Source: Myxococcaceae bacterium (GTDB lineage Bacteria; Myxococcota; Myxococcia; Myxococcales; Myxococcaceae). From it: a DNA stretch of 64,000 nt. A program made the translations under genes and the position numbers. Below the pieces are notes generated by a model that had not been told where the DNA came from, searched no databases, and saw only the letters and a program-made list of their open reading frames with translations. The stretch is from contig JADGHL010000007.1 of assembly GCA_019686135.1 (NCBI GenBank), positions 1-64,000 on the forward strand. Reading direction: 5' to 3'. Positions 26,691 to 28,397 of the stretch are shown in pieces. Positions within the stretch are counted from its first letter, which is position 1; each line of letters starts with the position of its first letter.

Positions 26691-27176
26691 TCAGGCGCGC
26701 TCGTCGTCTTCGGCGGGCATCGGACCTTCCGGTCTCAGCTGTGTCTGCGACGCGGGGAGGTCCTTCCGGTACGGCGCCAGCGCCTTGCGGAAGTTCTCGG
26801 TCCATTCCACCGGCTTCCGCGTCCTGGGGTCGATCCGCACCATCGTCCGGGTGCCGGTGGCGTAGGGGAGATCCTCGTCGAGCGGTAGCAGGCAGAACCC
26901 GAACGTGAGGCTGGTGCGTCCGAGCTTTTCGACCCACACCCGCGCGCGGACCTCGCCCACGCCGATGACCGGGCGCAGGTACTCGAGGTGGTTCGCCCGC
27001 ACCAGCTGGAACTGATCCGGGTTCGACGTGTCGTCGAGGATCCCGCGCCAGCCCAGGTGCTTCCAGAAGGAGCCGACGGTGCGCTCGAAGTAGAGAATGT
27101 ACCGCGCGTTGTGGAGGATGCCGAACGCGTCGAGGTCGTCGAAGTAGACGCCGTGGACCTGCTCGTGGAACCGCAT
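26691..27176 (-). CDS. Acyl-CoA thioesterase (4HBT, YbgC-like)
   Basis: A 161-residue hotdog-fold thioesterase. The motif VYFDDLDAFGILHNARYILY near the N-terminus matches the 4HBT/YbgC active-site loop, with an Asp and a following His-Asn. The strands RARVWVEKLGRTSLTFGFCL and a TRTMVRID segment complete the fold. The ATG at 27176 is close to the family start; upstream in-frame sequence belongs to the preceding gene in another frame. It starts 11 bases after the FrnE-like gene, so the two are likely cotranscribed. Confidence 0.85.
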   Translation of the reverse strand: MRFHEQVHGVYFDDLDAFGILHNARYILYFERTVGSFWKHLGWRGILDDTSNPDQFQLVRANHLEYLRPVIGVGEVRARVWVEKLGRTSLTFGFCLLPLDEDLPYATGTRTMVRIDPRTRKPVEWTENFRKALAPYRKDLPASQTQLRPEGPMPAEDDERA

Positions 27177-27187
27177 GGTTCGCCCTT

Positions 27188-27823
27188 CTAATCGTTCCCG
27201 CCCGGCGCCGCCCTCGGCTTTCCGCCGGCACGGAGCACCGCCGCCTCGAGCACCTCGTACGGCTGGCACCCGACCACGAAGTACGGGCCGATGAAGAAGG
27301 AGGGGATCCCGGTCACGCCCTTGCGCTGGCCTTCGCGGGTGTGGTCGTCCACCCGCCGCTGAAAGACCGGATCGTCCGCAGCGGTGAGCGCCTTGTCCGG
27401 GTCGAGCCCGGCCTTCTCGGCGCACCGGCGCAGCACCTCGTCCTTTTCGAGATCCTCCTGCGCGCGCCAGTGCGCGTGCATCGCCGCGTTGCGAAAGGCG
27501 TCCAGCTTGCCCTCGTCCCGCGCGTGCTCGGCGATCGCCAGCGCGCGGCGGGTGTTGGGCAGGTGCGACACCTGTTCGAGCGGCGGATCGATCCCGAAGC
27601 TGGCGGAGAAGCGGCGCATGTGCTCGCGCATCGCCGGCAGCCGCTCCGGCGGGAAGATCTCAGAAAGCTCGCGCCCGCCCCTGGGCGTGTCCGGGCGCAG
27701 CTCGAACGGACGCCAGTCGATCTCCACGTCGTACGTCTTCTGCAGCCTGACCAGGCTGCTCTGCTCCGCGACGAAGCAGAACGGTCAGACGAAGTCCGAG
27801 TACAGCTCGATGCGAACGCTCAT
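27188..27823 (-). CDS. FrnE/DsbA-family thiol oxidoreductase, probable selenoprotein (UGA at codon 13)
   Basis: A 211-residue thioredoxin-fold protein read from the ATG at 27823, with TGA at 27785-27787 read as selenocysteine (U). The N-terminus is MSVRIELYSDFV-U-PFCF, so the TGA replaces the first Cys of the C-P-F-C redox motif (U13, C16). Every later codon is open to the stop at 27188 and family features continue: FGIDPPLEQVSHLPNTRRAL, the cis-Pro loop GIPSFFIG and the GCQPYEVLEA tail. Upstream in-frame TAG and TGA fix the start. The only GTG allowing a conventional call (27727) lies past the active site. A SECIS-like hairpin follows at 27742-27759. FrnE proteins form or reduce disulfides in the cytoplasm. 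Alternatives are a Cys-to-stop mutation or a base error. Confidence 0.78.
27742..27759 (-). promoter_or_regulatory. SECIS-like hairpin for selenocysteine insertion
   Basis: Reading the minus strand, GCAGCCT-GGTC-AGGCTGC forms a perfect 7-base-pair stem with a GGUC tetraloop. The stem starts 26 nt after the UGA and the loop lies at 33-36 nt. Bacterial SECIS elements lie inside the coding region within about 16-37 nt of UGA and present a G-U in the loop for SelB; the E. coli fdhF loop also has GGU. No part of the SelABCD machinery is in the window. Confidence 0.7.
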
Positions 27824-27878: not shown

Positions 27879-28397
27879 TCAGCCCACCTTGCGCTGTTCG
27901 TCGAGCGGCACCACCGGCGCGGCGGCGGTGGAGGCGGAGGACGGTTTCCCCACTTTCAGGCGCAACAGCAGCTTCGCGCTGGGGAGCAGGAACACCACCG
28001 CACCGATCCCGGCGAACCCCAGCGGCGCGCCCACCGGCGGGCTGTCGTGAAGCGTCCCCTGCAGGTTCGCCCAGGAGTAGTCACCATCGAGCGCGGTCTT
28101 CAGCGCGACGAGGTGCAGCACGGTGCCCGCAAGTCCGGTGACCACGCCGAGCGCGCCGACGATCCGCGCCACCCAGGCGAAGAACGCGCGCGACTTCGGG
28201 ACCACGGCGACGATGAGCAGCACCAGCCCCAGCGCCGAGTAGATCACCGGGATCCACTGGAGCAGGTTGTCGCTGTCCACGCCGACGAAGTGGGCGATCC
28301 ACGCGTCGGCCCCGAGCAGGATCAACCCGGGCAGGATGGCCAGGGCGATCGCCTTGCGCGAGTTGCGCCGGGCCCACAGCAAGAGTCTACCGATCAT
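27879..28397 (-). CDS. Multi-pass membrane protein, function unknown
   Basis: A 172-residue protein with four predicted TM helices: AIALAILPGLILLGADAWIA, VIYSALGLVLLIVAVV, WVARIVGALGVVTGLAGTVL and GFAGIGAVVFLLPSAKLLL. The N-terminus is basic (RLLLWARRNSRK), placing it in the cytoplasm. The C-terminal tail is a short Ser/Ala-rich cytosolic stretch. I recognise no family. It lies about 55 bases upstream of the FrnE-like gene on the same strand, so a shared transcript is possible. Confidence 0.65.
   Translation of the reverse strand: MIGRLLLWARRNSRKAIALAILPGLILLGADAWIAHFVGVDSDNLLQWIPVIYSALGLVLLIVAVVPKSRAFFAWVARIVGALGVVTGLAGTVLHLVALKTALDGDYSWANLQGTLHDSPPVGAPLGFAGIGAVVFLLPSAKLLLRLKVGKPSSASTAAAPVVPLDEQRKVG

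Follow-up and report, generated by a model that had tools for sequence, protein, structure and literature searches.

A predicted FrnE/DsbA-like selenoprotein with an in-frame UGA in its U-P-F-C motif

The window, a 64,000-nucleotide stretch of DNA from a Myxococcaceae bacterium, contains a FrnE/DsbA-like reading frame with a TGA at the first position of its redox motif (Table 1), which raises the question of whether this codon interrupts the gene or specifies selenocysteine (Sec). The initial annotation had proposed a hidden selenoprotein, and this reading was supported by the sel genes of the genome, the conservation of the TGA, a hairpin that tracks the TGA, purifying selection, covariation in a sister subfamily and an FrnE-type fold. 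On these grounds, the gene very probably encodes a 211-residue FrnE/DsbA-type thiol-disulfide oxidoreductase whose attacking residue would be Sec (U13-P-F-C16), with the UGA decoded via SelB and the hairpin.

Table 1. Features of the predicted selenoprotein locus in the window
Feature	Position	Strand	Description	Evidence
Predicted FrnE/DsbA-like selenoprotein CDS, 211 residues	27188..27823	-	ATG to TAG, TGA = Sec	Translation; Pfam DSBA 8.3e-38; pLDDT 96; dN/dS <1
In-frame TGA, codon 13	27785..27787	-	First position of U-P-F-C motif	TGA in 24 orthologs, TGC/TGT in nine
SECIS-type hairpin	27742..27759	-	GCAGCCU-GGUC-AGGCUGC	Found in L145 and 23/23 aligned TGA genes; no stem in 9/9 Cys orthologs
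4HBT (YbgC/FadM-like) thioesterase, downstream neighbor	26691..27176	-		Pfam 4HBT_2 2.3e-10; NCBIfam subfamily match below cut-off

Reading frame and conservation of the in-frame TGA

The frame lies on the minus strand, which the initial annotation had left unstated. Translation of the window gave M-S-V-R-I-E-L-Y-S-D-F-V, then TGA, P-F-C, 195 further codons and TAG, confirming the described order of ATG, 12 codons, TGA, PFC and an open frame to the stop. With TGA read as U, the protein is MSVRIELYSDFV-U-PFCFVAEQSSLVRLQ..., 211 residues up to TAG. The upstream in-frame stops that had been claimed were located as a TGA and a TAG, 4 and 5 codons 5′ of the ATG. The next in-frame start in the mechanical ORF list is a GTG at 27727, which, as had been stated, lies past the active site and yields a shortened protein (179 residues) lacking it. 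In the read-through protein, the Pfam DSBA domain (PF01323) spans residues 5 to 195 with a value of 8.3e-38, and the predicted Sec occupies the first UxxC position within it, as in DsbA-like selenoprotein form 1.

Homologs were sampled from 60 relatives and then from 145 genomes, all of the same order, in which a subfamily 47 to 59% identical to the window protein was found. TGA was observed exactly at codon 13 in 24 genes (that of the window, 22 other aligned genes, and L145), within the motif U-P-F-C, except for one gene with U-P-Y-C. At this codon, nine orthologs carried TGC or TGT, which agrees with the proposal that the TGA stands at the first Cys of the redox motif; the TGA was thus conserved and alternated with Cys codons only. 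One genome (G052) carries two U-P-F-C copies, L023 and L145, both with the TGA and the hairpin. The random stop codons elsewhere in homologs that the initial annotation had named as contrary evidence were not found, the orthologs having no other stops inside the frame. Apparent extra internal stops (TGA or TAG) near the C terminus of some homologs were rejected as such, being the genes' own terminators, 186 to 196 codons past the active site.

The start codon 12 codons 5′ of the TGA was retained in nearly all genes. From the ATG through the TGA, the orthologs aligned essentially gap-free, with D10, U/C13, P14, and C16 invariant. At E ≤ 1e-46, no subfamily members were found outside the order when some 50 further genomes from its phylum were sampled. 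Distant homologs in Chloroflexota, Bacillota, and Gammaproteobacteria carried Cys, in a scan biased toward Cys because one of the query patterns contained it.

For the codons behind the TGA, dN/dS was 0.07 to 0.54 in eleven subfamily pairs, each with at least one TGA gene and with the hairpin codons omitted, the values at wider distances being approximate. A value of 0.11 was obtained for one pair from the U-P-W-C subfamily described below. With dN/dS below 1, these codons are under purifying selection, and the gene is therefore not decaying.

SECIS-type hairpins in the U-P-F-C and U-P-W-C genes

The hairpin of the window gene has the stem GCAGCCU/AGGCUGC, and its GGUC loop begins 32 nucleotides after the UGA. 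All TGA genes showed the form described for bacterial SECIS-type elements (PMC1088965), in which a stem-loop with a small, G-containing apical loop closely follows the UGA. The UGA plus 48 nucleotides of the window folded better than most shuffled sequences (z = −3.2; 4 of 200 shuffles did as well). This RNA also has an extended alternative fold of similar energy, so energy alone was not decisive and the question was decided by comparison. All 23 aligned TGA genes contained the GGUC-loop hairpin, with 7 or more pairs in 22 of them and 5 in the remaining one, and the stem at that register amounted to 0 bp in 9/9 Cys orthologs. The association between hairpin and codon gave a Fisher p of 3.6e-8, a value that takes no account of common descent. 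When the Sec and hairpin columns were excluded from tree building, four state changes were placed on the resulting tree, and the hairpin tracked the codon in 3/3 independent well-supported contrasts, a number too small for a significant sign test.

The hairpin was also visible in codon choice. Wherever residues S22-S23-L24-V25-R26 occur in TGA genes, they are encoded by AGC-AGC-CTG-GTC-AGG. At 43 other conserved residues with four- or sixfold codon degeneracy, the most frequent codon had an average share of 0.63 and reached 1.0 at none of them. AGG is rare, at 17 of the 338 Arg codons in nine neighboring ORFs (an approximate count, as the frame of one of the nine was misread), and at R26 it is what the hairpin stem requires. 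Most Cys orthologs used CGN at that Arg, with the surrounding residues changed.

A second FrnE/DsbA subfamily with an in-frame TGA, in the motif U-P-W-C, also occurs within this order, in other genomes (L037, L040 to L043, L045 to L049, L143, and L144). These genes are 28 to 41% identical to the window protein, and their hairpin differs, reading UCGGCCUC-GGC-GAGGUCGA with the loop 21 nucleotides after the UGA. Across 11 distinct sequences, 97.7% of cells paired, and both sides had changed in 6 of the 8 pairs; neither the paired fraction nor the covariation score was reached by any of 500 shuffles or by any slid register. In close Cys members of this subfamily, the hairpin was mostly lost. Among the genes of U-P-W-C type, one with Cys (TGT; L038, genome G030) kept the full 8-bp stem with the loop GCC and is possibly a recent Sec-to-Cys change. 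Over all rows of the tree, at least nine Sec/Cys changes were required.

We consider the chances about even that the U-P-F-C genes form an undescribed, order-specific FrnE subfamily in which the SECIS element froze S-L-V-R (AGC CTG GTC AGG) and switches to Cys released that constraint; because the U-P-W-C subfamily holds Sec with a different hairpin, the same proposal would include more than one Sec origin.

These comparisons bear on whether the TGA could be a nonsense mutation in a pseudogene or a base error for TGC. Such an origin is very improbable: TGA and TGC differ by one base and the assembly is a 245-contig draft, but the same TGA was found in 23 other genes of other genomes, independent orthologs that refute it in practice, and both the purifying selection behind the TGA and the occurrence of the hairpin only together with TGA also speak against it.

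Selenocysteine machinery, fold, and gene neighborhood

For decoding of the UGA as Sec, the genome (5.5 Mb in 245 contigs, 97% complete) was searched for the machinery. Matches were obtained for selA (595 bits), selB (full length, 332 bits), selD (376 bits), and a tRNA-Sec with the anticodon TCA (74.3 bits versus a gathering score of 47), all outside the window. The genome therefore contains the SelA, SelB, SelD, and tRNA-Sec expected of a bacterium that makes selenoproteins, and the absence of selA, selB, selC, and selD, which had been suggested as a way of overturning the selenoprotein reading, did not materialize. The window itself had been described as free of Sec machinery; in keeping with this, the tRNA and Rfam scans of the window returned no tRNA genes and no Rfam matches; the machinery sits on other contigs. 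As a marker separating genomes with TGA genes from those with Cys genes, SelA failed: it was present in 30 of 31 tested genomes, bearers of Cys genes included, and the machinery therefore does not discriminate between the two. The selD gene of the same genome (L010, G000:C57:42072-43001) also contains an in-frame TGA, followed by the hairpin GGCGCAG-GUC-CUGCGCC with a GUC loop. SelD itself is thus likely a selenoprotein, the second likely selenoprotein gene of this genome and one of a well-known kind.

In the proposed mechanism, translation would initiate at the ATG, and SelB on the hairpin (27759-27742) would bring Sec-tRNA(UCA), made with SelA and SelD, to codon 13, so that the ribosome would put in Sec rather than terminate. 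Sec insertion at codon 13 is thus predicted from the sequence. In bacteria, UGA is also known to be read through by other routes, and a suppressor tRNA or a reassigned UGA could insert Trp or Cys here. This is as improbable as a nonsense mutation or base error, since the genome carries a UCA-anticodon tRNA-Sec with the full set of sel genes, some orthologs themselves terminate at UGA, Cys is the sole replacement of the codon in orthologs, and the hairpin is needed only with TGA.

The read-through protein was modeled with a pLDDT of 96 and a pTM of 0.91. In the model, the codons preceding the TGA make up the first strand of the thioredoxin fold, and U13 comes immediately ahead of the next helix, where the attacking residue of such folds is located. 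P174 is invariant in a G-I-P loop, which we take to be the usual cis-Pro position. By sequence and fold, the nearest solved proteins were Deinococcus radiodurans FrnE and Streptomyces coelicolor SCO1869. With a DsbA-like fold, a CP(W/F)C-type motif, and best matches to 5cp1 and 5cnw, which make FrnE its nearest relative, the protein belongs to the FrnE subfamily. It begins at the first strand and leaves no room for a signal peptide, so a cytoplasmic location is likely. By analogy with D. radiodurans FrnE, it would reduce or isomerize disulfides in the cytoplasm, with a selenolate as nucleophile: the selenolate would attack a disulfide or an oxidized partner, and Cys16 would resolve the selenenyl-sulfide. 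That the real product is instead the short protein from GTG 27727, the ORF given by mechanical gene calling, is the least probable reading of all, given the essentially gap-free alignment across the TGA, the invariant residues there, and the first strand made by the codons before it.

The downstream thioesterase starts 11 bases past the stop of the predicted selenoprotein gene and may share a transcript with it. The upstream neighbor (27879-28397, minus strand) is a small, hydrophobic, membrane-protein-like ORF of 172 residues without a significant family match. None of five window neighbors had a homolog in the flanks of the orthologs tested (about 1.5 to 3 kb), in which the gene itself was recovered as a positive control. 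The neighbors are thus not kept beside the orthologs, and the role of the protein could not be read from gene context.

Relation to known selenoproteins and FrnE proteins

DsbA-like UxxC selenoproteins were predicted in 2005 from the Sargasso Sea metagenome (nine sequences, COG2761; PMC1088965), were met again in the GOS survey (PMC2398784), and are entered in Table 1 of a 2026 review under the name "DsbA-like protein form 1" with the family PF01323 (PMC13188914). The window gene therefore adds to a known kind of selenoprotein. It resembles form 1 in domain family (PF01323/COG2761), UxxC position, a bacterial-type hairpin after the UGA, and widespread Cys homologs. However, form 1 is known mainly from marine metagenomes, and no description was found of a U-P-F-C subfamily in this order whose hairpin has a fixed GGUC loop. 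Searches of the literature for Sec-containing FrnE proteins or myxobacterial selenoproteomes returned only general DsbA-like entries, and no published description was found of a clade-wide hairpin with linked Sec/Cys switches, the distinction from published DsbA-like selenoproteins being drawn from their descriptions.

The closest solved relative, D. radiodurans FrnE (DR_0659; PDB 5cnw and 5cp1), matched the window protein with a sequence value of 3.7e-19 and a TM score of 0.81 to 0.84 and carries its CP(W/F)C motif at the place of U-P-F-C. It differs in having Cys for Sec, is 24% identical, and has an extra C-terminal CXXXXC. This motif, found in many FrnE proteins, is absent from the whole 211-residue translation; some FrnE proteins, that of S. 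roseofulvus among them, also lack it (PMC8945050), so it is not strictly defining for FrnE. FrnE proteins have been described as thiol oxidoreductases predicted to reside in the cytoplasm; those of Deinococcus have CP(W/F)C motifs, and disruption of frnE in D. radiodurans led to greater sensitivity to cadmium and diamide (PMC8945050).

The Rcas_1661 family thioredoxin-like (seleno)lipoproteins (NF041057, DsbG-like) are likewise thioredoxin-fold (seleno)proteins with UxxC, but they form a lipoprotein family, and the window protein matched only the C-terminal part of the model, at 32 bits versus a cut-off of 190. None of the NCBIfam selenoprotein models covers the window protein, and automated annotation would therefore probably yield a truncated, inactive-looking product.

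The finding adds a well-supported selenoprotein subfamily, not mentioned in the selenoproteome surveys consulted, to what is probably a myxobacterial order; among named relatives, those nearest to the genome are Polyangiaceae, Kofleriaceae, and an unclassified deltaproteobacterium, all assigned to Myxococcota. With 24 Sec and nine Cys orthologs whose codon and hairpin change in concert, the subfamily offers a ready system for asking what benefit Sec brings to an FrnE-type enzyme, and the same set of orthologs lets one ask how a SECIS element within the coding region constrains the protein.
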